Shown here: positions 14,333-45,082 of the stretch, piece after piece
Layout of the letters: each line of letters opens with the position of its first letter
How positions within the stretch are numbered: position 1 is the first letter of the stretch
From: an uncultured bacterium
GTDB taxonomy: Bacteria; Bacillota_I; Bacilli_A; RFN20; CAG-826
Length of the DNA: 50,885 nt
NCBI GenBank assembly: GCA_949297275.1
Contig: CASFQR010000006.1
Location: 1-50,885 of the forward strand
Reading direction: 5' to 3'
Position numbers and translations under genes: made by a program
Notes under the pieces: model-generated
What the model was told of the DNA's origin: nothing
What the model saw: only the letters and a program-made list of their open reading frames with translations
The model's database searches: none

Positions 14333-14746
14333 TTATTCTTCAACTTTAATTGGCTTGCTAGAAGTAATTTCGTTTTTTAAATAAAAGATTTTTTGTTGGC
14401 GGTGACGCGCTTGCGCTCCAAAAACGGCCGCTGAAATAATCATTAAGGCGACGCCACAAAATAAACCGACTAAAAATGTAAAGAAAAAGATGCCTGATAA
14501 AATTAATTGAAAGAGCCAAAACATCGCATCATCACTTGATACTAAGGCATCATAATTATTGATATCAGTTGAGAATTTAACAAAGAAGACGACGCTACAA
14601 ACTAGCCAAGCGGCACATAATAAATATGTAATGCCAAAGATGATTGCCATCATTAAGCCGGCATTAAAAAATTTCTTGCGGCGGCTATTTATATCATTTA
14701 ATTCAATCTCGAGATATTCAATGTGATTGGTAAAGTCTTTTGTCAT
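14333..14746 (-). CDS. Small two-to-three-helix membrane protein, unknown function
   Basis: Protein of 137 residues that I do not recognise. An N-terminal amphipathic, charged stretch (about 1-26, probably coiled coil) is followed by a membrane helix around 29-55, a short polar loop rich in Asp/Ser, and a longer hydrophobic region around 72-107 that could hold one or two helices. The C-terminus is basic then acidic. There is no signal peptide cleavage site or known motif. No ribosome binding site is visible before the ATG; TACTAT on the - strand about seven bases upstream could be a -10 of a leaderless transcript. It is a single-gene unit between hsp20 and the sugar operon, with no functional hint from its neighbours. 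Confidence 0.6.
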   Translation of the reverse strand: MTKDFTNHIEYLEIELNDINSRRKKFFNAGLMMAIIFGITYLLCAAWLVCSVVFFVKFSTDINNYDALVSSDDAMFWLFQLILSGIFFFTFLVGLFCGVALMIISAAVFGAQARHRQQKIFYLKNEITSSKPIKVEE

Positions 14747-15023: not shown

Positions 15024-16007
15024 ATGAAAATCAATAAAAAAATCTTAGATAAAATCGAACTCATCGAGGTGGAAGTCTCGGAAAATTTTGTCGTGACGCT
15101 TTCAAGCTTTGGGGCGGCAATTTATAGTATTTATTATCACCATGAATTAATGAATATTACCCCCAAAGATCTAAAAGATTTTTATTTATCAAATAAATAT
15201 TTTGGAAAAACTTTAGGGCCGACAGCCGGACGAATCGCTAAGGGGGAATTTAAGATGGATGATACTATCTATCATCTTGATAAAAATGAACACGGTATCA
15301 CCTCCTTACATGGTGGCAATCACTCCTTGAGTTTTACAAATTTCACTAGTGAAATTAAATTAGGTGAAAATGACGCTTTAATTTCTTTTAAATGTCTCCG
15401 CCACGATAAAGATGGTGGCTATCCTGGTGAAGTCAATTATGAAATTCAATATTTGTTTAATACTAATCAAGATGAAATTACGATGCGTTTTTTAGCATCG
15501 ACTAATGATAAATCGTTCGTCAATTTAGCTAATCACCTTTATTTTAATTTAGGGGAAAGTGATGCCAGTGAATTATTTTTAAAACTGCGTTCACATTATT
15601 ATATGTTAATGGATGATGATTTGATTCCTTTAAAGAAGAAGATGGTAACTAAACCATTCAATTTCATCTTTAAAAAGCCAATTAAAAAAGATATCAATAA
15701 TAGTGCGCTTAAAGGTCCAAATTTAAATGGTTATGATAATATTTTTATCATTGATTCACCAAATAAAATCCATCCCTCAATGGTCTTAGAATCACCTAAA
15801 TATAAATTAAAAATTTTTTCTGATTTAAAAGCCGCGATTATTTATTCAAATAATTATTTAGAAGATGTTGAGCTCTTAAATGGTTATAAAGATAAATTAC
15901 ATGCGGGTGTCACTGGAGAATTTATGAATCTCAAACCAGAAATCATCGATAAATTTCATCCCTATGACCATTATGTTAAATTAGTCTTTTCTAAGAAAGG
16001 TCATTAA
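15024..16007 (+). CDS. galM: Aldose 1-epimerase (galactose mutarotase family)
   Basis: Protein of 327 residues of the GalM beta-sandwich family, interconverting alpha and beta anomers of galactose/glucose in the cytoplasm. Conserved features are GPTAGRIAKG (65-74), LHGG with H96, the catalytic His in NHLYFNLG (H171), and the catalytic Glu in GVTGEFMNLKPE (E299). It is first in a tight operon with a sugar transporter and a GH2 glycosidase, which fits supply of the right anomer to downstream sugar kinases. No Shine-Dalgarno sequence precedes the ATG. The preceding 277 bases (14747-15023) are AT-rich and show no other convincing feature. Confidence 0.9.
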   Translation: MKINKKILDKIELIEVEVSENFVVTLSSFGAAIYSIYYHHELMNITPKDLKDFYLSNKYFGKTLGPTAGRIAKGEFKMDDTIYHLDKNEHGITSLHGGNHSLSFTNFTSEIKLGENDALISFKCLRHDKDGGYPGEVNYEIQYLFNTNQDEITMRFLASTNDKSFVNLANHLYFNLGESDASELFLKLRSHYYMLMDDDLIPLKKKMVTKPFNFIFKKPIKKDINNSALKGPNLNGYDNIFIIDSPNKIHPSMVLESPKYKLKIFSDLKAAIIYSNNYLEDVELLNGYKDKLHAGVTGEFMNLKPEIIDKFHPYDHYVKLVFSKKGH

Positions 16008-16009
16008 AT

Positions 16010-17419
16010 ATGGAAAAATTAAAACTTAATTATAAGCGCACCTTAATTATTGGCTTTGCCTTTTTTGGCATTTTGATGTTGTGGCAAATTTATAATACTT
16101 ATTGCCCAGTTATTTTAACGGAATTACTTGTCGAAAAGATGGGTAATGCTGAGCATAATGAAGTGCAGTGGATTGTTGGCATCATTATGGCTGTCGATAA
16201 TATTTTAGCTTTATTCATGCTGCCAATTTTTGGCGCTCTTAGTGATAAAACTAAAACAAAATATGGTAAAAGGATGCCTTATATCTTTATTGGCACAATT
16301 TTATCAGCGATTGCTTTACCACTTATTCCTTTAGCCTTTGCTTATGATTCATTATGGGGCGTTATTATCACAATGCTCCTAGTCTTAGTCTTTATGAATG
16401 CTTATCGTAATCCCGCAGTTGCCTTAATGCCTGATATTACTCCTAAACCCTTAAGGGCAAAGGCGAATGGCGTGATTAATTTAGTAGGTTACATCGGGGC
16501 AATTTTAGCTGGTGGCATTGCCTTATTTATTACCACGAGCAAATATTTTAGAGCGGAACTTGATGATGGCAGCCTTAATCCAAATTATCAAAGTTGGTTA
16601 ATCTATTTACCCTTTATCATCACTAGTGTCTTAATGCTAGTTTCTTTAATTGTCTTAGTTTTAAAAATTAACGAAAACGATTTAGAAAAGAAGATGGCTC
16701 TTGAGATGCAAGAAGGCGAAAAAGCAGCGGAAGTAATTGAAGAAATCCCTGAAGATAGTTCTAAATTAGGCAAAGGCAATTTAAAAAATTTAATTTTAAT
16801 GATTGTTGCTATCTTTTTATGGTTTGCGGCCTTTAATGCGGTGGAAACATTTTGGTCTAATTATTGCACTTATTATATTTCCTTTACTTCTTATTCGATG
16901 GCGACAAATGTCCTAGCTATCGCCTCGATGATCGCCTTTATACCTGCTGGTATGTTAGCGACTAAAATTGGTCGTAAATACACAGTCATTATCGGTTTAG
17001 TGTTATGCATCTTACCAATTGGGGCTTGCTTTATTATGTCACCTTTGATTATTCAAGATAGTGGCATCGTCTCCAACCATACCTATTTAGCGTTCATTTA
17101 TTACATTTTATTTGCAATCGCTGGCATCGGTTGGGCGATGATTAATTGTTGCTCTTATCCGATGGTGGTGGAGCTCGCTAATAAAAATAATATTGGTAAA
17201 TATACTGGAGCCTATTATGCTTCTAGCATGCTCGCGCAGTCTTTAACTCCCATTGCTTTAGGTGCGTTAATGCGTTCACCTTCTTTCCAATATGGGGTAA
17301 TGTTTATTTATTCAACGATTCTTTTTGTCGCGGCGATGGTGGTATTTTTCTTTGTTAAAGAAAATCGCCAAAAGAAAATTACTTACAAAAAAGGTTTGGA
17401 GGCTTTTGATCAAGATTAA
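16010..17419 (+). CDS. MFS glycoside/sugar transporter (SLC45/GPH-like)
   Basis: Membrane transporter of 469 residues with about 12 membrane helices and a central cytosolic loop (residues about 222-258) rich in Glu/Lys. The loop between helices 2 and 3 carries GALSDKTKTKYGKRMPY, the family signature shared by SLC45-type sucrose/maltose carriers and the GPH group. Substrate import with a cation is expected. It starts two bases after galM and is followed two bases later by the next gene. Together with the cytoplasmic GH2 enzyme two genes on, it most likely brings in a small glycoside such as a galactoside, but the exact sugar cannot be read from the sequence. Confidence 0.85.
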   Translation: MEKLKLNYKRTLIIGFAFFGILMLWQIYNTYCPVILTELLVEKMGNAEHNEVQWIVGIIMAVDNILALFMLPIFGALSDKTKTKYGKRMPYIFIGTILSAIALPLIPLAFAYDSLWGVIITMLLVLVFMNAYRNPAVALMPDITPKPLRAKANGVINLVGYIGAILAGGIALFITTSKYFRAELDDGSLNPNYQSWLIYLPFIITSVLMLVSLIVLVLKINENDLEKKMALEMQEGEKAAEVIEEIPEDSSKLGKGNLKNLILMIVAIFLWFAAFNAVETFWSNYCTYYISFTSYSMATNVLAIASMIAFIPAGMLATKIGRKYTVIIGLVLCILPIGACFIMSPLIIQDSGIVSNHTYLAFIYYILFAIAGIGWAMINCCSYPMVVELANKNNIGKYTGAYYASSMLAQSLTPIALGALMRSPSFQYGVMFIYSTILFVAAMVVFFFVKENRQKKITYKKGLEAFDQD

Positions 17420-17421
17420 TT

Positions 17422-18399
17422 ATGCCGGCTATTTTAACCCATTTTGCTTTTGCAAAAGATAATTATATTTTTGAAGAGAGATATCATCCCCTAATCGCCA
17501 TCGGAGCGATGGGGCCTGATACTTATTTCTTTTATGGTTATTCTTTGTATAAACGACCTTTTAAAAAAGAAATTCGCGCCTTTGGCACTTATCTTCATCA
17601 TATCAATGTCGCAAAATTTTATGAAGCCTTATTAGATTACGCGATGCGACAAAAAGAAGATGAACAGAAAATTTATTACGCCTTTATCTATGGTTTATTA
17701 CTCCATTATATTTTAGACAGAAAAGTTCATCCTTATGTCTTTTATAAGACTGGTTTTACCATTAAAGAAGAAGAAAAATTTGCTTATATGTATGGCCATG
17801 TCTATTTTGAAAGCATGATGGACTCTTTAGTTAGTAAAGCCAAAAAGATTAAAATGCAAAACGCGAAAGTGATTAAAAATAAGAAAGAAGACATTTTAAA
17901 GATTTCCAAAATGCTTTATGAGGTAAGCGCCTTAATCTTTAAATTTTCTTATTTAACACCCTTATCTTTTTATCATGCCTATTTAGATATGCGCTTTTTA
18001 GAAAAATTATTTACCTCGCGATTAGGGATTAAGCGCTTTTGTTATCGCCTCTTTTGCTATAAGAGCCAACTTTATCCTCAAACTAATATGAATAAAGTGA
18101 AATATAATGATATCTTAGATGTTTTAAATGATAAAAAAGCGTTATGGCTTGATCCCAGTAGTGGCGCCCCTCATCATGAATCATTTTTTGAATTATATGA
18201 AGAGGCATCTAAGGAGGCTAAAGAGATTCAAGCTTTTATTTATGAATATATTTCAAAGAAGAAAACTAATCGTTTCTTATTTAAGTTTATTAGTGATATC
18301 AATCACGATGGCGAAGTGATTGGGGCTTTAAAAAGATATATGGATTATGTCTATGATAAATTACCCCATCGTCTCATCCCCTTTATCGTCAATAATTAA
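17422..18399 (+). CDS. Zinc-dependent phospholipase C-like protein
   Basis: Cytoplasmic-looking protein of 325 residues in the Zn_dep_PLPC family. The fold's metal-site pattern is visible: N-terminal MPAILTHFAFAKD, GAMGPDTYFF near residues 28-37, a paired His in THLHHIN-like text near 53-55 (YLHHIN) and the HYILDRKVHPY segment near 93-103. No signal peptide is present, unlike secreted clostridial alpha-toxins; intracellular relatives of this type are common in Firmicutes and mostly uncharacterised. It lies inside the sugar operon, two bases from both neighbours. A hydrolase of a phospho-ester is likely; a role in sugar metabolism is not shown. Confidence 0.75.
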   Translation: MPAILTHFAFAKDNYIFEERYHPLIAIGAMGPDTYFFYGYSLYKRPFKKEIRAFGTYLHHINVAKFYEALLDYAMRQKEDEQKIYYAFIYGLLLHYILDRKVHPYVFYKTGFTIKEEEKFAYMYGHVYFESMMDSLVSKAKKIKMQNAKVIKNKKEDILKISKMLYEVSALIFKFSYLTPLSFYHAYLDMRFLEKLFTSRLGIKRFCYRLFCYKSQLYPQTNMNKVKYNDILDVLNDKKALWLDPSSGAPHHESFFELYEEASKEAKEIQAFIYEYISKKKTNRFLFKFISDINHDGEVIGALKRYMDYVYDKLPHRLIPFIVNN

Positions 18400-18401
18400 C
18401 A

Positions 18402-20144
18402 ATGGAAAAAATAGAAAATTTATCGCTTTATCCTCGACCCTCTTTTAGGAGAAATTCTTATTTATCCCTCCATGGCGCTTGGGATTATAAAATTTTAAAA
18501 GACGATGAATTCAAAATATGGGATAAATTAAATTATGATGGTGAGATCTTGGTCCCTTATCCTCTTGGTTCTAGTTATAGCCAAGTAAATAAAATTTTAA
18601 AACCGGATGAAATCTTAATTTATCATAAAAAAATTAACCTTCCAAAAGATTTTATCATACCTAATGGTCATTTAATCATAAATTTTTTCGGGGTTGATCA
18701 AATTGCCATATTATATATAAATGATCATTTTGTCGGAAAACATGAAGGTGGTTACACTCCTTTCAGTTATGATATTTTACCTTTTCTTAATCTAGAAGGT
18801 GATAATGATTTATATCTTTATGTCAAAGATTACACTGATACATCCTATTATGGTCGCGGCAAACAAACTTTAAAACCGCATGGGATTTGGTATCACCCCT
18901 TTAGTGGCATTTATTTACCGGTCTTTTTAGAAGCAACACCATTAGAATATTTATTAAATATTAAAATCACCCCTTTGTTTGATGAAGGGAAAATTGATAT
19001 CTATTTAGAGGCAACGAGTAAAAATATACCAGCCCAAATCCTTTTAGAAGGAGAAGAAATAACTTTACCAATTCAAGAACATTATCAATATCAATTAAAA
19101 AATATCCACCCTTGGTCAATTGCTGATCCCTATCTTTATGATTTTAAAATCAAATATGGTAGTGACGAAATAGCGTCTTATTTTGGCTTCCGTAAAATTG
19201 AAATTAAAGAAGATCATAAGAAGATAAAAAGAATTTATTTAAATAATAACCCCATCTTTTTAAATGGTTTATTAGATCAAGGTTATTTTGCCAATAATTC
19301 GATTACTCCTTTCAAGGAAGAAGAATATCTTCGCGATATTAAAATTGCAAAAGCTTTAGGGTATAACACCTTAAGGAAACATCTTAAAATTGAAAATCCT
19401 CTCTTTTATTATTATTGCGATAAAGAGGGAATGTTAGTCATCCAAGATTTTGTTAATGGTGGTGAGAAATATTCGACCTTTATCACCGTCATCACTGGCT
19501 TTTTAGGTTGGCACTTTAACGATTCTAATTACAGTTTATTTAAGCGGAATAATCCTAAAGGACGCGAGTTATTTAAAGAGGCAATTAAAACAACCCTCAC
19601 TCATTTATATAATCACCCTTCAATTATTATGTACACCATCTTTAATGAAGGCTGGGGACAATTTGATTCTAAATTAATTTATGAATTATGTTTAAAGAAT
19701 GATTCATCGCGCCTTTATGATGTTAATAGTGGTTGGCATGACCAAAAAGTTGGTAAGATAAAATCAATCCATAAATATTTTGTTAAATATCATGAAAAAC
19801 CTGATAAATATCACCGCCTAAAATTCCTCTCTGAATTTGGTGGCTATTCCTTGATTAAAGATAAAGAAAATTTAAATTATCCCGCCTTTGGCTATAAATT
19901 CTATCGTTCCTCCGACGACTTAATTAATGCAATTAGTCGCCTATATTATCACGAAATTATTCCTGCAATTCCTCGCGGTTTAAGTGGGGCAATTTATACC
20001 GAACTTAGCGACGTCGAAGGAGAAGTTAATGGCTTAGTAACTAATTCGCGTGATTGTGTTAAAGTCGATCAAAGCAAAATGCGAAAAATAAATGAAGATT
20101 TGCAAATAGAATTTGTTAAAAACACTATAAATGAAGAAAAATAA
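18402..20144 (+). CDS. Glycoside hydrolase family 2 enzyme, cytoplasmic
   Basis: GH2 enzyme of 580 residues (beta-galactosidase/glucuronidase/mannosidase family). Domains: jelly-roll sugar-binding (about 10-178, with HGAW and GGYTPFSYDI), Ig-like (about 180-268), and TIM barrel (about 270-560). The acid/base is E416 in FNEGWGQF and the nucleophile is E478 in SEFGG. It lacks the large C-terminal domains of LacZ. There is no signal peptide, so it should act on sugar imported by the operon's transporter. With galM in the same operon and galT elsewhere, a beta-galactosidase is the favoured guess, but the TIM-barrel pocket does not let me assign the sugar. It overlaps the first protease gene by 14 bases. 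Confidence 0.88.
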   Translation: MEKIENLSLYPRPSFRRNSYLSLHGAWDYKILKDDEFKIWDKLNYDGEILVPYPLGSSYSQVNKILKPDEILIYHKKINLPKDFIIPNGHLIINFFGVDQIAILYINDHFVGKHEGGYTPFSYDILPFLNLEGDNDLYLYVKDYTDTSYYGRGKQTLKPHGIWYHPFSGIYLPVFLEATPLEYLLNIKITPLFDEGKIDIYLEATSKNIPAQILLEGEEITLPIQEHYQYQLKNIHPWSIADPYLYDFKIKYGSDEIASYFGFRKIEIKEDHKKIKRIYLNNNPIFLNGLLDQGYFANNSITPFKEEEYLRDIKIAKALGYNTLRKHLKIENPLFYYYCDKEGMLVIQDFVNGGEKYSTFITVITGFLGWHFNDSNYSLFKRNNPKGRELFKEAIKTTLTHLYNHPSIIMYTIFNEGWGQFDSKLIYELCLKNDSSRLYDVNSGWHDQKVGKIKSIHKYFVKYHEKPDKYHRLKFLSEFGGYSLIKDKENLNYPAFGYKFYRSSDDLINAISRLYYHEIIPAIPRGLSGAIYTELSDVEGEVNGLVTNSRDCVKVDQSKMRKINEDLQIEFVKNTINEEK

Positions 20145-21411
20145 GTTTTTAAATATTAGTTTTTTATTACCATTAATTATTGGATTTGGTTCTTCTTTTA
20201 TAACCAAAAATGACCATAATTATTTCCCTAACGATATATCAAATATTCCAGAAGAAATTTTAAACGCTAAACTGGAAACGACAACTGTTTCTAGTGCCTC
20301 GCCTTATATTTTATCCCCGCGCGATGAACCATATTTTTCGCGGCAATTACAATTTGAAACTATCGATTATTCTTCAACTTATAATTTAACACGTGGCGAA
20401 GATATTAAAGTGGCGGTGATCGATACCAAACCGCAAATTAATCACCTTGATTTCTTTGATGAAATTGGTAATAGCGTTTTTTCTAATGATAGCGCCTTAA
20501 TTGTTGGAAGTGCGAGTGGGAATGTTTATTATAGCGTAGAGGAATATGGCTTAGATATCATTGCTGAAACAGCGTCTTCTAGTAAGCATGGAACTTCGAC
20601 AATGGGTGTGATTAGCGCCCAAGTGAATGGTGTATTAGGCGCAGGTATCGCCCCGGAATGCGAATTGATTGCCATCGCTTTAGAAAACGCAACGGTTGGT
20701 GAGATGCTCGGCGCTTTTCAATATGCTTATCAATTAGATGTTGATATTATTTCCATCTCGATGCTTGTTTACGAAAATACTTTTACGGATATTAATGGAG
20801 TTGAACATATTGGCGTTAGTGGCATCAAAGATGTCATTACTCCTTATTTAGAAGCATTATATCTTGCTGATATTGCCGTGGTCGCTAGTGCGGGAAACGA
20901 ATCCACTAATCAATTAGCCTATCCTGCTAATAGTGAATATGTTATTAGTGTTGGGGCTTTAGCAACCCGATCTTCTACTAATCTAGCTACTTATTCTAAT
21001 TACGGACATTCTTTCTTAGTCGCACCTGGTACCGTCTATGCTCCAGCGACTTTTTATCCTGAAGTAGGTCAACCACAATATAATCGCTATGGGCAATTTG
21101 AAGGTACATCTTTTTCAGCCCCAATCGTCGCCGGCGCTTTAGCGTTATATAAATCCATAAATTTAGATGCTAGTGTCGACGAATTAAAAAATGCTCTCAA
21201 AGAAAGCGCGGTTGATTTAGGCATAGAAGGCTATGATGAACTCTATGGCTATGGCCGCTTATCAATCGCGAATTTATTAAATTACGAACAACCTTTTGCC
21301 TTGATAAACTATATTTACATTATTATTGGGGCAATTTTATTACTTGCTTTAATTGGTGTAATTATTTTCATCATCGTCTATACTCGTAAACGTAAAATCT
21401 TTGAAAAATAG
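20131..21411 (+). CDS. Membrane-anchored subtilisin-like serine protease 1
   Basis: Peptidase S8 protein of 426 residues. A hydrophobic N-terminus (about 7-23) fits a signal peptide, then a short linker leads directly to the catalytic domain (about 85-375) with D98 (VAVIDTK), H153 (KHGTS), oxyanion N256 (SAGNES) and S327 (GTSFSAP). The first motif reads DTK rather than the usual DTG. A membrane helix at about 393-416 is followed by a basic tail RKRK, so the protease faces outside and is tethered to the membrane. There is no I9-type propeptide. It is the shortest of three consecutive paralogues and lacks the extra C-terminal region of the other two. Substrate unknown. Confidence 0.9.
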   Translation: MKKNKFLNISFLLPLIIGFGSSFITKNDHNYFPNDISNIPEEILNAKLETTTVSSASPYILSPRDEPYFSRQLQFETIDYSSTYNLTRGEDIKVAVIDTKPQINHLDFFDEIGNSVFSNDSALIVGSASGNVYYSVEEYGLDIIAETASSSKHGTSTMGVISAQVNGVLGAGIAPECELIAIALENATVGEMLGAFQYAYQLDVDIISISMLVYENTFTDINGVEHIGVSGIKDVITPYLEALYLADIAVVASAGNESTNQLAYPANSEYVISVGALATRSSTNLATYSNYGHSFLVAPGTVYAPATFYPEVGQPQYNRYGQFEGTSFSAPIVAGALALYKSINLDASVDELKNALKESAVDLGIEGYDELYGYGRLSIANLLNYEQPFALINYIYIIIGAILLLALIGVIIFIIVYTRKRKIFEK

Positions 21412-21420
21412 GAAAAATAT

Positions 21421-23574
21421 ATGTTAAAAATCACTTTATTAATTGGAACATTATTCTCGTTAAATATCGGATTGATTAATCTACCTTTAAAAGAAAATCA
21501 ATTGGAAGGATTCTCTTATCATCGCCAAGTTGAAATTAGTGATGCTTCTTTTATTAAGGCATCAACTTTTGATCAAGATATTATTCCTCCTTATGATTAT
21601 TTAGAAGAAGAATATTCTTATCTTAATGAGCCGTTTTATACTGGGGAAAATAATTATTTATCTTATCTCGATGAGATTAATTTAGGTGATATTCTTAACC
21701 AATATCGCGGGGAAAATGTTAAGGTCGCTGTGCTTGATACTGGTTATAATTATCTCCATGAAGAATTTTCTTATCTAGACGAAAATAACAAGCGACAATC
21801 TTTATTTTCTCCTGATAGCGCACTTATTAACCTCGATTATAATTCTAGTACAGGTGAATATTATTTAGACATTTATCCCGTCAAAGATTATGGTTATGAA
21901 GTCATTATGGAGGATACTAATCCGGAAACTTATAGTGCTAATAATCATGGGACAGCAGTGGCTGGTACCATCTTTTCACAAATTAACGGTGTTGGTGGCT
22001 TTGGGGTCGCTCCAAATGTTGAATTAATAGCGATTAAATTAGGTCACCTTTATCTTGATGAAATTAAATATGCTTTAGAATATCTTCTTGAAATTGGGGA
22101 TGTAGATATTGTTACGATGTCATTAGGCGTTTATGCTGAAAGTTTTACGACGACGATTGATGGTCAAACTTATCAAATAAGTGGCACTAGCGAAGTTCAA
22201 ACATATTTAGCGGATGTCATTAAAAGATGTTATCAAAACGATATCTTTGTTTTAGCTTCCGCCGGAAATGAAAATACCACCCATATTTCTTATCCAGCTG
22301 GAAATGATTATGTTTATAGCGTTGGTGCTTTAGATGATAATGATTTAACGAAACGCGCATCTTATTCTAATTATGGTAATGTTGATATTTACGCTCCTGG
22401 GACAGTAGTTAGTCCAACTGGCTTTTATGATGATCCTAAACTTGATCCAAATTCTTCTTATGGAATAATTTCAGGTACTTCTTTTTCTTGCCCGTTAGTA
22501 GCGGGAATCGCTGCCTTATATAAAGCTAAATATCCTTACGCCAAACCGAATCAAATTGCTGAAGCCATCAATTTAACTGCGACTGATTTAGGTGAAAGTG
22601 GCCATGATGATATTTTTGGTTATGGTCGGATCTCAATTAGCGACTTAATGTCTTTTGTCCCACTAAAACAAGTTACATCCCATAAAAATCTTTTATTAGC
22701 GATTAATAGTGAACCATTGGCATTAGATTTAGAACTTTCACCATCTAACGCGTCTAATCAAGATTTTATTATCATTAATCAAGGTGCTGAAAATGTTTTA
22801 GATTATACGAATAATATTATTAATCCTTTAAATCTTGGTGATTTTGCTTATGAATATCATTATCTAAATCACGCACCTTTAAAAGGCACTGAAAATGACC
22901 CAAGTGATTTCATCATTAAAGTTAGTGGGCAAGTCTTAAATAATTTCGATGATGTTATATTAAGTTCTTTCAACGAAACATTTTTCTTTAATCAAGAACT
23001 TAATATCAATGATTTCTTCTTAATTTATCAAGATGATTATTATGATATCCCCATAGCGAATAATATTTATTTTAATTATGAACGGGCGAATTTTATCCCG
23101 CGTAAAGAAATTATTTTATCTTATTTAGGGCATGAATTTCCTTATTTCTTAAATGTCTCAATCGATGATTTATCTACTGATGATTTCCCCTTAGCGGTCA
23201 ATGCTTATTTAAACTATTTCGATGAAATTACCCATCAAGAATGTCTAAATAATTATGATCATTTTAGCGAAACCCTATGGAATGATTTAAAGATTTTATA
23301 TGAGGAATTAATTAGTAAAAATCCTCAATATAATAATGAAGTAGTGGAAGCGATGAATGATGATCTCTTAGAGCGTTATCGCTTAATTACTAATAAATAT
23401 CAATATGATGATTTTTTAGATTTAAATTTAGAAACATTCTTATTTAATCATCCCTTAGTTGATGAGACGAATAATAATTTATTAATTATTATAACTACTT
23501 TGAGTGTTGGCTTTTTTATCCTCTTAACTTTCTTAACAATTAATCGCCATAAAGGACAACAAAAAAATGATTAA
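21421..23574 (+). CDS. Membrane-anchored subtilisin-like serine protease 2
   Basis: Peptidase S8 protein of 717 residues: signal-like N-terminus (1-22), acidic linker, catalytic domain (about 95-412) with D106 (VAVLDTG), H176 (NNHGTAVAG), N283 (SAGNEN) and S354 (GTSFSCP). A long region of about 180 residues without a recognised fold follows, then a module at about 594-667 (ECLNNYDHFS ... RYRLITNKYQYDDF) that is shared with protease 3, and a membrane helix at about 686-706 with a short charged tail. It begins 9 bases after protease 1 and overlaps protease 3 by 8 bases. All catalytic residues are present, so an active ectoprotease is expected. Confidence 0.9.
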   Translation: MLKITLLIGTLFSLNIGLINLPLKENQLEGFSYHRQVEISDASFIKASTFDQDIIPPYDYLEEEYSYLNEPFYTGENNYLSYLDEINLGDILNQYRGENVKVAVLDTGYNYLHEEFSYLDENNKRQSLFSPDSALINLDYNSSTGEYYLDIYPVKDYGYEVIMEDTNPETYSANNHGTAVAGTIFSQINGVGGFGVAPNVELIAIKLGHLYLDEIKYALEYLLEIGDVDIVTMSLGVYAESFTTTIDGQTYQISGTSEVQTYLADVIKRCYQNDIFVLASAGNENTTHISYPAGNDYVYSVGALDDNDLTKRASYSNYGNVDIYAPGTVVSPTGFYDDPKLDPNSSYGIISGTSFSCPLVAGIAALYKAKYPYAKPNQIAEAINLTATDLGESGHDDIFGYGRISISDLMSFVPLKQVTSHKNLLLAINSEPLALDLELSPSNASNQDFIIINQGAENVLDYTNNIINPLNLGDFAYEYHYLNHAPLKGTENDPSDFIIKVSGQVLNNFDDVILSSFNETFFFNQELNINDFFLIYQDDYYDIPIANNIYFNYERANFIPRKEIILSYLGHEFPYFLNVSIDDLSTDDFPLAVNAYLNYFDEITHQECLNNYDHFSETLWNDLKILYEELISKNPQYNNEVVEAMNDDLLERYRLITNKYQYDDFLDLNLETFLFNHPLVDETNNNLLIIITTLSVGFFILLTFLTINRHKGQQKND

Positions 23575-25519
23575 AACGCTTTTAATATCTATTATTTCTA
23601 TCTTAACTTTTACGAATATAAATGTTTTAAATATTAATAAAAATTTAGAAGAAGAAGTTCTTTATCAATTTAATCATGATATTTTTGCAATGAATGATCC
23701 TTATCAAGAACCATATTATTTAAATAATGCCCAATATCAATATCAACATCTTGATTTAGGTGATAGTTGGTTAACTACTTTAGGTGAAGGAGTTAAGATT
23801 GCCATTATTGATACCGGGATTCGCTATGACCATCATGATTTTATTGATGAAAATGGTCAATCAATTATTTCGCCTGATAGCGCCTCTTTTACGCGAGTAA
23901 ATTCTATCGGTGGTGGTACCCATATTGAAATTAAAACCGTCAAAGAAGATGGTTATGAAATTTTAATGGAAGATACCACTAATACATCTAATAATCATGC
24001 GACTGCGGTGACGGGAACGATTGCCGCTGCTTTAAATAAGGAACTAGGTGTCGGTTTAGCGCCCCAAGCGGAAATTATAAATTTAAAATTAGGTAATTTA
24101 CAGAATCTCGAATTATATGCTGCCTTAGAATATGCTTTAACTTTAGATGTAGATATTATCAATATGTCCTTTTCCCTTTATGAAAGTAATTATCCTGGCA
24201 TTGCTAAATCTTTAAAGCCTTATATTGATGCTTGCGATGAACAAGGGATAGTGATGGTCGCTAGTAGTGGGAATGATGAAACTTATCTCCCTAGTTATCC
24301 AGCCGCTTATGATAATGTGATTGCTGTTGGGGCCTTAAAAGATAATTCTTCAACTGAAATCGCCGAATATTCAAACTTTTCTTATAACGATATTGTAGCG
24401 CCAGGAACCGTCTATGCCCCCTGGATTGATTATAATGGCCCATATACTTTGGATGACTATCATTATATTTCGGGTACTTCGTTTGCTGCTCCTTTAACTG
24501 CCGCTGCGTTAGCCTTATATAAATCAAAATATCCTTCCGCTAATAGTGCTCAAATGAAAGAAGCTCTCCTTAATAGTGCGGTTGATTTAGGTGAAGTAGG
24601 TTATGATTATGATTTTGGTTATGGTCGTTTATCGGTTACTAATTTATTAAATTATCCACCAATTGAAACTGTCTCTTATTACGATGAAATCAAAATTCCT
24701 TTAAATATTCAAACTTATCAAATTAATTTAACGACTTCCCCCGATGATCTGATTTTAAAAAATATTGAATATACTTCTAGTAATGAAGATATCGCTAGTG
24801 TGAACGCGACTGGTTTATTAACTTTAAAGCAATTAGGTGAAACGACGATTAGTTATCGTTCTAAAGTTAATCCTAATATTGAGGGTAGTTTTCTATTAGA
24901 AGTTATTGCTGATAATATCGATTTAGATTTAACTAATACCAAAACACATTATACTTTTGGGGAAAAGGTTACTAACACTGATATCAAATTTTTAGATAAT
25001 TATCTACCTCCTAATTTAACGATTAAAGGTGAGACGAAAAAATTAGGAGCATATCAAATTAAAGTCGTTATTGATGGTTATGAGATTCCTCTAACTATTA
25101 AAGTGACAAATTTAAATGCCTTAGCCTCTAATTTTACTCCCATGGAACAAGCTGAGGCTTATTATCAATATTTTATGACCTTAAGTGGGGAGGAATGTCT
25201 AAATCACTATGATCATTTTTCCTTAGAGATATGGGAAGAATTAAAGAATGAATATAATTACCTCCTTAATAGCAGTAAAGAAGAATTATTATCTTTAGAT
25301 AATTTTGAAACCTTAAATCAAAGATATACCTTAATTGTCAATAAATATCACTACGATGATTTTATTAAAGATGTTTCAACTAATAATGTTTTAAATCCTC
25401 TTACTAATTATTCCAAAGTTATCTTCTTAATCTTTACCTTATCTTTAGGAATAATTGCTATCTTTTTAACTAGTATCTTATATATAATTTTCAAAGCAAA
25501 AAAGCCAAAAAATAAGTAA
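23567..25519 (+). CDS. Membrane-anchored subtilisin-like serine protease 3 with Ig-like domain
   Basis: Peptidase S8 protein of 650 residues: signal-like N-terminus (1-20), catalytic domain (about 65-362) with D82 (IAIIDTG), H144 (NNHATAVTG), N236 (SSGNDE) and S305 (GTSFAAP). The His motif is HAT instead of the common HGT. A BIG2-type Ig-like domain follows (about 375-446, with YTSSNEDIASVNATGLLT), then a small beta-rich domain (about 450-515), the juxtamembrane module shared with protease 2 (about 528-599), a membrane helix (about 617-642) and a Lys-rich tail. It is the last gene of the operon starting at galM. Substrate unknown. Confidence 0.9.
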   Translation: MIKTLLISIISILTFTNINVLNINKNLEEEVLYQFNHDIFAMNDPYQEPYYLNNAQYQYQHLDLGDSWLTTLGEGVKIAIIDTGIRYDHHDFIDENGQSIISPDSASFTRVNSIGGGTHIEIKTVKEDGYEILMEDTTNTSNNHATAVTGTIAAALNKELGVGLAPQAEIINLKLGNLQNLELYAALEYALTLDVDIINMSFSLYESNYPGIAKSLKPYIDACDEQGIVMVASSGNDETYLPSYPAAYDNVIAVGALKDNSSTEIAEYSNFSYNDIVAPGTVYAPWIDYNGPYTLDDYHYISGTSFAAPLTAAALALYKSKYPSANSAQMKEALLNSAVDLGEVGYDYDFGYGRLSVTNLLNYPPIETVSYYDEIKIPLNIQTYQINLTTSPDDLILKNIEYTSSNEDIASVNATGLLTLKQLGETTISYRSKVNPNIEGSFLLEVIADNIDLDLTNTKTHYTFGEKVTNTDIKFLDNYLPPNLTIKGETKKLGAYQIKVVIDGYEIPLTIKVTNLNALASNFTPMEQAEAYYQYFMTLSGEECLNHYDHFSLEIWEELKNEYNYLLNSSKEELLSLDNFETLNQRYTLIVNKYHYDDFIKDVSTNNVLNPLTNYSKVIFLIFTLSLGIIAIFLTSILYIIFKAKKPKNK

Positions 25520-25564: not shown

Positions 25565-25593
25565 TTGAAAGCGCTTACAATTATTACTATAAT
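25565..25593 (+). promoter_or_regulatory. Promoter with overlapping CRE (CcpA-type) site
   Basis: TTGAAA (25565-25570) and TATAAT (25588-25593) are spaced 17 bases. TGAAAGCGCTTACA at 25566-25579 matches the catabolite-responsive element consensus TGWAANCGNTNWCA at every defined position and overlaps the -35, a location that normally gives repression by CcpA or a LacI/MalR-type sugar regulator. It serves the starch-binding surface protein and the short ORF before it. Confidence 0.85.
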
Positions 25594-25768: not shown

Positions 25769-27334
25769 ATGGATAAATCTAAATTAATTAAATATCTAAC
25801 AGTTGGTTTCTTATCGATGAGTGCTTTAGCGGCCATTACCTTTTCAATGGTTTCTTTTACAAACGAAGAAAACAAAGTTGAAGTAGTAGCAGAAGAAACT
25901 AATATGCCGAATTTTGATCGGTTTGTCTATCTTCAACCTAGTGATGGTTGGAAGCTAGGTGACGAAAGATACGCTATTTGGTGCTTTGGTAGTTCAACAG
26001 GCGTGGCTGATGCTTTCGTTGATATGTATTGGAAGGATAATGATAACGGTTATGATATATATTACGCTGAGATTCCAGCCGATTATACGACAATCAATTT
26101 TGTTCGGATGAACGGGGATACCAGCGAAAATAATTGGGAGAATAAGTGGGATCAATCTGATAATATCACATTCACCGGTCGTCATATTTATTACAATAAT
26201 AATTTTAGTTATAGCGAAGAATACGCTAATGCTTATGTCGCCCCTTCAACCGAAACGGTTACAATTGATGTAAGCTATGATAGTAGCACCATTAATGGCG
26301 ATGTCTATGCTTATGTTTATACCACTAAGAAAAATGTCTATAATTTACCAGGAATTTATGTTTGGCCTGGTGTAAAAGTAGATGCGGGTGATGCGGTTAC
26401 ATTTTCAGATGATTATGACATGATTATCTTTAATAATGGTAGTGACCAGACTGCTGATTTATATGTCCCTGCTTTAATTAAAGAATCGCAAGATAAACAA
26501 GATGGTGTCGCACAATTTACCTATAATTTAACTGCTTATAATAATAGTAGTGCTACAGCATGTGGCTGGTGGGAAATTAATAGCGATGTTTTCCCTTCTT
26601 ACACCAGTGAGTATGCTCGCGTCTATGTCAAACGACCAGATACTTATACTAATCACTCAATTACTTCTTTACATTACTATAAAGAAGGCGTCGATGCCGA
26701 AGTGGCTGAAGGCGGATATATTGAATTTTCTAGTGGTGATTGGCAAGTCTATTTTAATGTTAAAATTGCCGATTTAATAGGTTCACAAGTTCAAGTTAAA
26801 ATTTATGATTCGCGTTCTGGATATAATAGTTATAGTACAACTGATAGTGATTATACTTATTCTAGTGGCGATAATGCTCAAGTTTATTATGCTAATGAGG
26901 ATTCTTCCTTGACGCGAGGTATTATTGATAATCCTGCACCTTCTTCGATGAGTGTTATTTTGGGCGGTTATTTTACCTGCTTAGAATCTTTAGATAATGG
27001 TTATGGTAATTTTGCGCAATTATCGCGAACTTGGCTTACTGATGATAGTGGTGACTTTAGAATCGATGATTCTTGGCAAAATACGATCATTAAGGATTTT
27101 GCTAATGGTGATATCACCTATAGTGGCGAAAGAAATAATACGGTTAAATTAATTGATAAATATAATAAAATGATGAATTTATATAATCAAAAGGTGAATG
27201 AATCTTCGGCGTTAATTGTCGCTAATTCGCCAATGATAGATCAAAATAGTTTCATTATCTTAATTGCCGTTTCTTTGGTGGCCATAGCTTCTATCTCTTT
27301 CTTAGTCATTCGCTTTAAGAAAAGACAAAATTAA
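25769..27334 (+). CDS. Membrane-anchored surface protein with starch-binding modules
   Basis: Extracellular protein of 521 residues: signal-like N-terminus (about 8-30), then at least two aromatic-rich modules resembling CBM26-type starch-binding domains (about 45-150, with Trp/Tyr in VYLQPSDGW and the WENKW area; and about 168-270, with YAYVYT...GIYVWPG), a third beta-rich module (about 285-375), a C-terminal region (about 395-480) and a membrane helix at about 492-514 ending RFKKRQN. No catalytic motif is visible. It probably holds starch or maltodextrin at the surface for the amylase and pullulanase encoded 5-11 kb downstream. AAGGAG precedes the ATG and the CRE promoter upstream links expression to sugar status. 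It ends in an intrinsic terminator. Confidence 0.8.
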   Translation: MDKSKLIKYLTVGFLSMSALAAITFSMVSFTNEENKVEVVAEETNMPNFDRFVYLQPSDGWKLGDERYAIWCFGSSTGVADAFVDMYWKDNDNGYDIYYAEIPADYTTINFVRMNGDTSENNWENKWDQSDNITFTGRHIYYNNNFSYSEEYANAYVAPSTETVTIDVSYDSSTINGDVYAYVYTTKKNVYNLPGIYVWPGVKVDAGDAVTFSDDYDMIIFNNGSDQTADLYVPALIKESQDKQDGVAQFTYNLTAYNNSSATACGWWEINSDVFPSYTSEYARVYVKRPDTYTNHSITSLHYYKEGVDAEVAEGGYIEFSSGDWQVYFNVKIADLIGSQVQVKIYDSRSGYNSYSTTDSDYTYSSGDNAQVYYANEDSSLTRGIIDNPAPSSMSVILGGYFTCLESLDNGYGNFAQLSRTWLTDDSGDFRIDDSWQNTIIKDFANGDITYSGERNNTVKLIDKYNKMMNLYNQKVNESSALIVANSPMIDQNSFIILIAVSLVAIASISFLVIRFKKRQN

Positions 27335-27356
27335 GACCATAAATATTTCCTAATTT

Positions 27357-27391
27357 AAATGACGAATCGCCTCGGTTCGTCATTTATTTTA
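27357..27391 (+). terminator. Intrinsic terminator after the starch-binding surface protein
   Basis: Perfect 10-base arms AAATGACGAA (27357-27366) and TTCGTCATTT (27376-27385) flank a 9-base loop and are followed by ATTTTA. Confidence 0.85.
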
Positions 27392-40261: not shown

Positions 40262-41770
40262 ATGCAATTACCTGTCATTAATCATTTAATTTATTACGCG
40301 AATAAGCATCTAGAATTAGCAACGCTTGATAATATTTATAAATATAATGAATTATTACATTTCTTAAACGCGGATGAAATGGCGTTTACTTCCGAAGATT
40401 TATCTTATATCGACCAATTAGATCGCCCTGATATATTACTTGATCGCTTAATGAATGAACTCGCTATTAACAAGATTGAATTACCCTATAGTGAAGAAAC
40501 AATTAAAGCTGAAGTAATGGGTATTTTATCACCTTTACCTAGCCGCGTTATTGAGCGATTTAATGCTTATCAAAATAAAGAAGAAGCAATCAAAGATTTT
40601 TATCATTTAAATATTGCTTCTTATTATGTCCAAGCGACAAATATTGCTCGCAATAAAAAATGGTGGACAAAAGATAATCTAGTCATCACCATCAATTTAA
40701 GTAAGCCAGAAAAAGATAATAAAGATATCCGTAACGCGCTTTTAAATCAAAATGTTACTTATCCCCAATGTGTTTTATGTTATGAAAATGAAGGTTTTTT
40801 TGGCAAAGGGAAATTTTTAAATCGCAAAAATATTCGCGTGATTCCTTTAACTTTAAATCACGAAGATTGGTTTATGCAATATTCGCCTTATGGTTATTAT
40901 GATGAACATTTAATCGTGATTAAAAAGCATCATGAACCGATGCATATCACTTTAAATAATCTCTTAGCAATGTTTGATTTTGTCGATCAATTCCCCTTTT
41001 ATTTTATTGGTAGCAATAGCGATTTACCAATTACCGGCGGTTCGATTTTAAGTCATGAACATTTTCAAGGGGGCTTAGAGAGGATGCCTTTAATGTTAGC
41101 AAAGACCAAAGAGCATTTTTCTTTAGGTGAAAAATATAGCGATGTTGATTTAGGCATTTTAGATTGGCCAAATACCGCTTTTATTCTTGAAAGTAAGAAT
41201 TGTCAAAAATTAGTGGAAGTCATTAAGGTGATGAATGAAGTGTGGCTAACTCATAGCGATGAAAAATGCGATATTATTGCATCGAGTAATCATGAGCGAC
41301 ATAATTCAATTACTCCCTTATTAGAGAAAAAAGGTGATTTATATCGCTTTTTTATGATTTTAAGAAATAATCGTACCTCAGAAAAATATCCGGAAGGCAT
41401 CTTCCATGCGCATCAAGAATATTATCATATTAAAAAAGAAGGAATTGGCCTTATTGAGGCTAGTGGGTATTTTATCTTACCTGGCCGTTTAGATAAAGAA
41501 TTGCCTTTAATTGCCAAAATTTTAGCTAATCCTTCCTTAAAAGAAGAATATCTACGCGCTTACCCTAATTTAGAAAAATTTAGCGGAATGATTGATGAAT
41601 TAATCTTAGTAGATAATCCCGATAAAGATGCTTTAATTAAAGATTATTTAGGGGATGTTATCCGCGGCATATTAAATAACACTGCGGTGTATAAAAATGA
41701 TCAAAATGGTTTAGATGGTTTAAATCGTTATTTAAAGAAAATCATAGAGGTAATTAACAATGCAAACTAA
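40262..41770 (+). CDS. galT: UDP-glucose-hexose-1-phosphate uridylyltransferase, class II
   Basis: Leloir pathway enzyme of 502 residues, the class II type found in Firmicutes: it exchanges UMP between UDP-glucose and galactose-1-phosphate. The active-site histidine motif is SHEHFQGG (264-271), preceded by the conserved GYYDEHLIVI and SNSDLPITGGS segments. The class II enzyme lacks the zinc-type HPH motif of E. coli GalT. It overlaps the following galactokinase-like gene by 11 bases. It pairs functionally with galM and the GH2 enzyme at 15-20 kb. galE is not in the window. Confidence 0.95.
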   Translation: MQLPVINHLIYYANKHLELATLDNIYKYNELLHFLNADEMAFTSEDLSYIDQLDRPDILLDRLMNELAINKIELPYSEETIKAEVMGILSPLPSRVIERFNAYQNKEEAIKDFYHLNIASYYVQATNIARNKKWWTKDNLVITINLSKPEKDNKDIRNALLNQNVTYPQCVLCYENEGFFGKGKFLNRKNIRVIPLTLNHEDWFMQYSPYGYYDEHLIVIKKHHEPMHITLNNLLAMFDFVDQFPFYFIGSNSDLPITGGSILSHEHFQGGLERMPLMLAKTKEHFSLGEKYSDVDLGILDWPNTAFILESKNCQKLVEVIKVMNEVWLTHSDEKCDIIASSNHERHNSITPLLEKKGDLYRFFMILRNNRTSEKYPEGIFHAHQEYYHIKKEGIGLIEASGYFILPGRLDKELPLIAKILANPSLKEEYLRAYPNLEKFSGMIDELILVDNPDKDALIKDYLGDVIRGILNNTAVYKNDQNGLDGLNRYLKKIIEVINNAN

Positions 41771-42842: not shown

Positions 42843-43396
42843 TGGTGCGTAATAAGAAATTAACTTTCAGTTTTTTAATGGTGATGATTGCCTTAGCCCT
42901 ATGCGCCTTCATCCCCTTATTTTTTCCGCTATTAAGTGTCGATAATTCTTTAACGAGCGAACGAAAGATGATGTTAAATTTTCTCCATTTAGCGTTCGGG
43001 GATGATTTTACTAATCTAGTAAATTTAGATACCTTATATATAAGTGGGAACGGGTTTATCTTTTGTACTCTCATCGCTGGCTTAGCGATGATTATGATGA
43101 CGATTATTTTTGCATTTTATTATGCTTTTTCTAAGAAAAAATCTCCATATTCTTTTATTCTCTTAGGTTTAGCAACCCCCTTTGATGCTTTATATATTGT
43201 CGGCTTATTTTTACTTCGTTCATTATTTTTAGCCTCGAACCCTAATTACGCGATTAATCAATGGAGAGTGAGTCTTTTACCTTCCTATTATATTGCTTTA
43301 ATTGCTGCGATGAGCGTAGCAATTTATTTGATATTTATTATAATATATATGGGCGTTGTTGTCCCTAGTAGGAAAGTGAATGATGTTCAAAAATAA
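42842..43396 (+). CDS. Four-helix membrane protein, unknown function
   Basis: Protein of 184 residues with four predicted membrane helices (about 9-33, 71-94, 104-126, 147-171) and a 35-residue loop after the first. I see no motif. It starts on the last base of the preceding stop codon without a clear ribosome binding site, suggesting coupled translation, and its end overlaps the next gene by 17 bases. Its neighbours are a galactokinase-like gene and a nuclease lipoprotein, which say little about its job. Confidence 0.6.
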   Translation: MVRNKKLTFSFLMVMIALALCAFIPLFFPLLSVDNSLTSERKMMLNFLHLAFGDDFTNLVNLDTLYISGNGFIFCTLIAGLAMIMMTIIFAFYYAFSKKKSPYSFILLGLATPFDALYIVGLFLLRSLFLASNPNYAINQWRVSLLPSYYIALIAAMSVAIYLIFIIIYMGVVVPSRKVNDVQK

Positions 43397-44207
43397 GATT
43401 TTAAAACCCCTTTTAAGTTTAAGCGCGACGATTGTGCTTCTAATTGGCGGCATTTTTTCTTTAAATAGTTGTAATCAAGATTATTACGCTGCAATTAAAG
43501 ATTCTTATCAAGGCGAAGAACTCAAATTAGCGTTAAATAAAATTATTAGTCATCGCGAACAAGTTAGTTACGCCTCCTTAGCCCGCATCTATGCGACTAG
43601 TGACGCTGCTCCTAATAGTGAGATTGATTCATTAACTGGTTTTCCAACAGAAGTTGTCCTATTTTATACTGGGGAAGTAGTTGAATGGTCACCTTGGGGC
43701 CAAATGGGAACATCGCTAAATGATATTAATCGTGAGCATGTTTGGCCGCAGTCGCGCTTTAAAGTTTATGGGGAAGCAATCCCAGGACCTTATAGTGATC
43801 CCCATATGGTTAGGCCAACTTTATATTCGATTAATGTTAGTCGCTCAAATTATTTCTACGCGGAAGAAGGCAATAATGTTTTTGATCCCGCTAAAATTGA
43901 GGGTGGAGATATTACTTATCGCGGCGATATCGCTCGCATCCTTTTTTACACGGCGACGCGATATTTAGAGCTTGAATTAGTGGACGCAAAAAGCGCTCCA
44001 AGTGACCTCAATCAAATGGGTTGTTTATCGGATTTATTAGAATGGAATTTAACTTATCCGGTTTTAGATAGAGAAAAACAACGTAATGAAGCAATCTATG
44101 CTTCAAGTCAAGCTAACCGCAATCCTTTTATTGATCATCCTGAATACGCTTGTCGCATTTGGGGCAATGTTAGCGATCAAACCAAAGCCATCTGCGGCTT
44201 AATTTAA
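43380..44207 (+). CDS. Secreted endonuclease I-family nuclease, lipoprotein 1
   Basis: Lipoprotein of 275 residues (lipobox LNSC, C31) with an endonuclease I (EndA/NucM-type beta-beta-alpha metal) domain. The signature REHVWPQS has H120; the second motif reads DPHMVRPTLYSINVSRSN, keeping H142 but replacing the second His of the usual DLHH by Met. RGDIARILFY and NPFIDHPEYA are also typical. Such enzymes degrade DNA or RNA outside the membrane, probably for nutrient nucleotides. An ATG ATG start offers 43380 or 43383. A second family member follows 11 bases later. Confidence 0.87.
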   Translation: MMFKNKILKPLLSLSATIVLLIGGIFSLNSCNQDYYAAIKDSYQGEELKLALNKIISHREQVSYASLARIYATSDAAPNSEIDSLTGFPTEVVLFYTGEVVEWSPWGQMGTSLNDINREHVWPQSRFKVYGEAIPGPYSDPHMVRPTLYSINVSRSNYFYAEEGNNVFDPAKIEGGDITYRGDIARILFYTATRYLELELVDAKSAPSDLNQMGCLSDLLEWNLTYPVLDREKQRNEAIYASSQANRNPFIDHPEYACRIWGNVSDQTKAICGLI

Positions 44208-44218
44208 GGAGAAAAAAT

Positions 44219-45082
44219 ATGAAAAAAACAATTTATGCTTCAACCTTTGTCCTCTTTAGTTTATGTTTATTAGCTAGCTGCGAAGATAAACGCGCGGATT
44301 ATGATGTCTTTGAAGGAAATCCGAGCGATTATAACGGTTATTACGCTAGTACGAATATTTATGACGAAAATGTCTCGAGTGGTGATATCACGATATCCTT
44401 ACATAATTTAATGATTGAAACGCATACTTATTATAATACTTATAATGAATGCTATGAATATTCTGAAGCTGGTGCTGATCTTGATGATAGCGGCAATTTA
44501 GAATTATTCTGGTCGGGCCGCAGTGTTCCTAAAACTTATAATTATAACCGCGAGCATGTCTGGCCGCGTTCAAAATCTAATAGTCTATTTAATGATGTTG
44601 AACCAAGTAGTCGCGGGGCGGGTAGTGATCTCCATCATATTCGCCCGACTGATCCTGAAACTAATACTGCTCACTGGGCGTGGGGCTATGGCGAAATAGC
44701 CGATCTTACAAACGCGAGTGACCAAGAAACATTGCTAGAAGCTGGCGTGGACGCTGGAATCATTTGTCCAAGTGAAAGAATTTATGAACCTAGCGATGAA
44801 TTTAAAGGTGATGTCGCCCGCATTTTAATGTATGTTTATGTCCATTATAACGCGGCGAGTGGCGGTTTAACGAATGAATATACTGGCGCTTTAGGTTTTG
44901 CTGCCGTGTTTTGGGATGGGTATGATATTATGCAAATCTACGATTTATTATTAGATTGGAATGAAATTGATCCCGTTAGTGACATCGAAAGAAGTCGCAA
45001 TGAATATATTTTTACCATTCAAGGCAATCGCAATCCCTTCATTGATTATCCCGCTTTAATGGGCCTATGCTTAGGCATTTAA
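44219..45082 (+). CDS. Secreted endonuclease I-family nuclease, lipoprotein 2
   Basis: Lipoprotein of 287 residues (lipobox LASC, C21) with the same endonuclease I domain as its neighbour but the fuller motif set: REHVWPRS with H113, and SDLHHIRPTDPETN with H139/H140. Later GDVARILMYVYV and NPFIDYPALMG complete the pattern. A ribosome binding site AAGGAGA precedes the start. The two nucleases are divergent in sequence and probably arose by an old duplication; one may prefer a different nucleic acid. It lies 15 bases before rimO. Confidence 0.9.
   Translation: MKKTIYASTFVLFSLCLLASCEDKRADYDVFEGNPSDYNGYYASTNIYDENVSSGDITISLHNLMIETHTYYNTYNECYEYSEAGADLDDSGNLELFWSGRSVPKTYNYNREHVWPRSKSNSLFNDVEPSSRGAGSDLHHIRPTDPETNTAHWAWGYGEIADLTNASDQETLLEAGVDAGIICPSERIYEPSDEFKGDVARILMYVYVHYNAASGGLTNEYTGALGFAAVFWDGYDIMQIYDLLLDWNEIDPVSDIERSRNEYIFTIQGNRNPFIDYPALMGLCLGI

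Follow-up and report, generated by a model that had tools for sequence, protein, structure and literature searches.

Three consecutive, complete subtilase genes (S8a, S8b and S8c) close a probable seven-gene operon for sugar use in the 50,885-bp stretch of DNA analysed here (hereafter, the window). Their products are probably, on balance, anchored scavenging proteases, which would cut environmental proteins into peptides for the oligopeptide transporter Opp and would be co-expressed with sugar use. We regard the threefold, sugar-linked arrangement as a genus-level peculiarity of a system that is otherwise of an ordinary kind.

Gene organization around the subtilase triplet

The genome analysed measures 1.04 Mb in 38 contigs (85% complete), of which contig C6 is the window. 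Between positions 15024 and 25519, seven forward-strand genes are spaced by −14 to +9 bases, in the order galM-like, MFS transporter, PF00882, GH2, S8a, S8b and S8c. The features of this region are as follows.

15024..16007, + strand: galM-like aldose 1-epimerase (PF01263, E 1.5e-37), first gene of the probable operon
16010..17419, + strand: MFS/GPH-type sugar transporter (PF07690, PF13347); the proteins of the congeners are 94% and 75% identical
17422..18399, + strand: PF00882 (zinc-dependent phospholipase C-like) protein, E 1.2e-10, without signal peptide
18402..20144, + strand: GH2 beta-glycosidase (PF02836/PF02837/PF00703), no hydrophobic N-terminus
20131..21411, + strand: S8a; S8 domain at residues 89-375, membrane helix at ~387-421, basic tail, no accessory domain
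21421..23574, + strand: S8b; S8 domain at 97-402, low-confidence beta-rich region, stalk at ~586-660, membrane helix at ~684-708
23179..23421, + strand: stalk module of S8b (profile match, E 2e-35)
23567..25519, + strand: S8c; S8 domain at 73-353, Big_2 Ig-like domain and second beta-sandwich, stalk at 525-605, membrane helix at 615-644, basic tail
25127..25372, + strand: stalk module of S8c (profile match, E 3e-42)
25565..25593, + strand: promoter-like site (11/12) downstream of S8c and ahead of the following gene, a hint only
25769..27334, + strand: surface protein with C-terminal anchor after the triplet, a neighbour kept in the genus and possibly its own transcription unit
27356..27386, + strand: terminator-like hairpin (14 pairs, T-rich tail), the strongest of the region

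The GH2 gene ends at 20144 and S8a starts at 20131 (−14), and the two following junctions are +9 (S8a/S8b) and −8 (S8b/S8c); the coordinates, frames and gaps reported for the three S8 genes in a preliminary description of this DNA were exact. That description had also joined the S8 genes to galM, the transporter and GH2 in one block. The block is conserved in the genus, but the PF00882 gene, which sits between the transporter and GH2, had been overlooked. On the basis of the gaps and the conserved gene order, we infer co-transcription, and the run from galM to S8c is a probable operon. Promoter- and terminator-like matches are no more numerous here than in shuffled sequence, and these sites are therefore hints only.

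Neither the GH2 protein nor GalM of the operon has a signal peptide, and the GH2 beta-glycosidase is probably cytoplasmic. A galactose-1-phosphate uridylyltransferase-like gene (40262-41770), 15 kb downstream, places galactose metabolism near the operon and makes galactosides a plausible substrate. Secreted enzymes encoded elsewhere in the window include amylase and pullulanase-like types and two endonucleases I. The adjacent endonuclease I genes at 43380-44207 and 44219-45082 have secretion-type N-termini and stand in tandem, like the proteases.

Domain architecture of S8a, S8b and S8c

The three proteins (426-717 aa) are the only S8 matches found in the 85%-complete genome. In each of them the PF00082 match spans the whole domain (E 4e-38, 5e-45 and 7e-48), and the scores of 131.9, 154.4 and 163.8 bits exceed the curated cut-off of 21.8, which places them in family S8. 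The Asp-His-Ser triad and oxyanion Asn that characterize this peptidase family are complete in all three and invariant across 18 aligned S8 sequences; S8a has a Lys in the Asp-Thr-Gly motif where most subtilases have Gly. Judged by their sequences, S8a, S8b and S8c look proteolytically active. PADLOC gave nothing for them beyond a weak match to its generic 'subtilase'.

The membrane topology proposed in the preliminary description was borne out, as each protein combines an N-terminal hydrophobic (signal-like) stretch with the catalytic residues, one C-terminal membrane helix and a basic tail. The I9 propeptide found at the N-terminus of classical secreted subtilisins had been said to be lacking. 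In agreement with this, Pfam gave no I9 match in any of the three proteins, and the propeptide fold is absent from the structure model of S8c, in which residues 8-49 are of low confidence. The S8c model contains a subtilisin fold (TM 0.82-0.85 of target against solved subtilisins), two beta domains, the first of which is Big_2, a helical stalk and the membrane helix. The suggestion that the proteins gain domains from one to the next is thus right for the Ig-like addition in S8c, whereas the long region of S8b is beta-rich only in a low-confidence model, and the stalk common to S8b and S8c had not been separated from these regions.

A stalk module shared with other proteins of the genome

The stalk consists of approximately 83 helical residues that precede the C-terminal membrane helix in S8b and S8c. 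Its profile also matches three more proteins of this genome (C2:56433-56693, C9:30484-30708 and C19:21762-22010), namely a protein without named domains, an Ig-like protein and an endonuclease I, each of which terminates in a hydrophobic helix and a basic tail. The module is present in 16 of the 58 genomes searched, has no match in Pfam or NCBIfam, and yielded no credible relative in a PDB profile search. It looks like a lineage-typical display module and, if the explanation favoured below is right, would offer a way to find hydrolases displayed by this bacterial group.

Conservation within the genus

The order galM, MFS transporter, PF00882, GH2 and S8 is kept in both congeners searched (G002 and G001). 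G002 has the full set of genes in the same order, with galM cut by the contig end, and its proteins are 75% (S8a), 69% (S8b), 76% (S8c) and 94% (transporter) identical to those of the window. Contig C34 of G002 carries a fourth S8 match, which shares 97.5% DNA identity with the S8c gene of that genome and has the same downstream neighbours; it was therefore treated as a strain-variant contig rather than as a fourth gene. In the more distant G001, galM, the transporter, PF00882, GH2 and S8c are present, S8b is absent, and S8a contains a single in-frame TAA. This TAA (14455-14457 of locus L033) lies within an otherwise intact S8a, which may be a pseudogene or reflect an assembly error. Given the absence of S8b and the interrupted reading frame of S8a in this congener, three copies are not essential.

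The S8 genes are under purifying selection. Between the window and G002, dN/dS values (NG86) are 0.17-0.21 for the proteases, 0.19 for GH2 and 0.04 for the transporter. Within the three proteins, constraint is strongest in the catalytic domains, and those of S8a and S8c are 80-85% identical to those of the congener. Together with the conserved gene order, this selection excludes a chance run of open reading frames.

Distribution and origin of the S8 genes

At E 1e-15, an S8 match was found in 165 of the 279 genomes of the order, and its presence is patchy even inside genera. The nearest relatives of the S8 proteins belong to genera g24 and g33 (40-45% identical over the S8 region), where the genes are single or paired and have unrelated neighbours. 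The preliminary description held that relatives with unlinked, single protease genes would count against its reading. The linkage of proteases and sugar genes is kept in both congeners, but such relatives do exist outside the genus: their S8 genes are single or paired, the transporter and GH2, where present, are on other contigs or far from them, and in the genomes searched S8 genes were never found beside these sugar genes. This indicates that the linkage was assembled at the genus level. The PF00882 protein and the MFS transporter form a pair across genera, and because genera g11 and g17 have this pair but no S8 gene with it, the pair is older and the S8 genes are an addition to it.

Tandem S8 pairs were found in four other genomes (G027, G104, G153 and G206), with no further triplet among the matches listed. 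The pair in G027 has a build of S8 with PA (and fn3_5) like that of the cell-envelope proteinases (CEPs), and a BPD_transp_1 permease gene follows it a few genes downstream; in G132, which belongs to the same family, an S8 gene adjoins a peptide ABC transporter. In three genomes of g33 (loci L066, L070 and L072), the single S8 gene adjoins a helix-turn-helix regulator gene, on the far side of which proteins of ~950 and 300 aa are encoded in the same order; those at L070 have no Pfam match.

In the phylogenetic tree, S8a and S8c are grouped with moderate support (84/71, and 97/84 inside); S8b may branch off at another point, as a separate, older paralogue. The triplet is therefore not simply the product of one recent triplication. 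The literature on Mollicutes, searched for tandem membrane subtilases, yielded nothing relevant.

Probable function of the triplet

In the explanation that we favour, S8a, S8b and S8c would be type I membrane-anchored extracellular subtilases that arose by tandem duplication within an S8 subfamily of this bacterial family. After export, they would stay attached to the outside of the membrane, with S8a near its surface and S8b and S8c further out, raised by a longer stalk and beta domains. There they would cut environmental proteins into peptides that enter the cell via the OppABCDF transporter. Their position after galM, the transporter, PF00882 and GH2 would most likely lead to co-expression with the use of galactosides or other beta-glycosides, such that the gathering of carbon and of amino nitrogen would be switched on together. 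Peptide uptake fits best with the combination of anchored proteases that look active, the presence on contig C1 of all OppABCDF genes, S8 genes near transporters in G027 and G132, and a neighbourhood rich in genes for surface or secreted enzymes that degrade polymers. The Opp genes are not adjacent to the S8 genes in this genome, and the linkage of S8 to Opp or peptide transporters elsewhere amounts to these two loci. The displayed endonuclease I and the secreted amylase, pullulanase-like and endonuclease I genes agree with a reduced-genome organism that scavenges polymers, the patchy presence of S8 fits an accessory role in nutrition, and the linkage to GalM and GH2 suggests that the regulation of the S8 genes is shared with sugar use. 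If correct, this explanation would show how an uncultured bacterium with a genome of ~1 Mb gathers amino acids at its surface in a manner coupled to sugar use. A more elaborate version, in which the co-regulated triplet of graded membrane reach, the beta-glycoside operon and the unnamed stalk belong together and each enzyme serves a different step or substrate, seems improbable to us.

The proteases might instead act on the cell's own surface, trimming stalk-bearing proteins (amylase-type binding proteins, the nuclease and Ig-like proteins) and thereby controlling their release. Stalk-bearing surface proteins are encoded in the genome, a membrane tether would favour targets in the same membrane, and a conserved surface-protein gene directly follows the triplet. 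However, S8 is missing in many relatives, some of which are stalk-positive (e.g. G004, G014 and G021), and the stalk therefore does not need these proteases; we consider this role unlikely, if the least so of the alternatives. Surface subtilases of gut and oral bacteria, such as C5a peptidase and dentilisin, can act on host or competitor targets, and the triplet could likewise cut host defence proteins, the mucin backbone or antimicrobial peptides and bacteriocins, serving colonization rather than feeding. The S8 genes do evolve faster than the transporter gene, though no faster than GH2, and overall dN/dS gives no sign of diversifying selection. Nor did the mucin or glycoprotein use put forward in the preliminary description hold up: the sugar enzymes of the operon do not appear to be exported, and GH29 fucosidase, the only mucin-related marker searched, was not found in three congeneric genomes. 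A host- or competitor-directed function is thus somewhat less likely still.

A mycosin-like component of a secretion system, or a maturation protease of a secreted peptide, had also been proposed. S8a has the layout of mycosins (an S8 domain with one membrane helix), and among NCBIfam models TIGR03921 scores best for S8a, S8b and S8c, but their scores (92.1, 119.9 and 128 bits) are below its cut-off of 278.75, the type VII secretion marker WXG100 has no match in the 85%-complete genome, and no precursor-peptide gene was noticed in the operon. We therefore rejected mycosin identity, and a role of this kind is very improbable. The germination proteases of clostridia (Csps) are likewise three subtilases encoded together (PMC3567191). 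Here, Spo0A (Spo0A_C), the sporulation marker searched, has no match in the genome, on which ground Csp identity was rejected; the proteins bear membrane anchors, a Csp-like prodomain was not detected, and the CspBA model gives only 42 bits for S8c. A triplet of Csp type is accordingly the least credible of these alternatives and hardly conceivable.

Comparison with known systems

Mycosins (MycP, type VII secretion) consist of an S8 domain, one C-terminal membrane helix and an N-terminal extension (PMC8131196), a layout that the window proteins resemble; in contrast, S8b and S8c have extra domains and a stalk, and WXG100 is missing from the genome. CspA/B/C resemble the triplet as three S8 paralogues encoded together but are spore proteins with a prodomain and a jellyroll domain, whereas the present genome has no Spo0A match. 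The nearest S8 relatives are those of the same bacterial family (e.g. g24, g33, g22 and g26), which differ in occurring in one or two copies away from sugar genes. Because other members of the family also have S8 genes in tandem pairs, the earlier characterization of the triplet as the best candidate for an undescribed system overstates its novelty.

The lactococcal and lactobacillar CEPs (PrtP) share with the window the combination of a surface-held S8 protease and a peptide importer in the same cell, the latter being represented here by OppABCDF on C1. One account of CEPs describes them as providing auxotrophs with amino acids (PMC7783315). They are large enzymes with a covalent link to peptidoglycan, whereas the window proteins, of at most 717 aa, are held by a membrane helix, have no PA or fn3_5 Pfam match and, by this domain content, are not CEPs; tandem S8 proteins bearing PA/fn3_5 do occur in the same bacterial family (G027). 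By analogy, the pairing of CEP with Opp, that is, surface proteolysis followed by uptake, would be the closest match to the triplet in working principle, realized in a different build.
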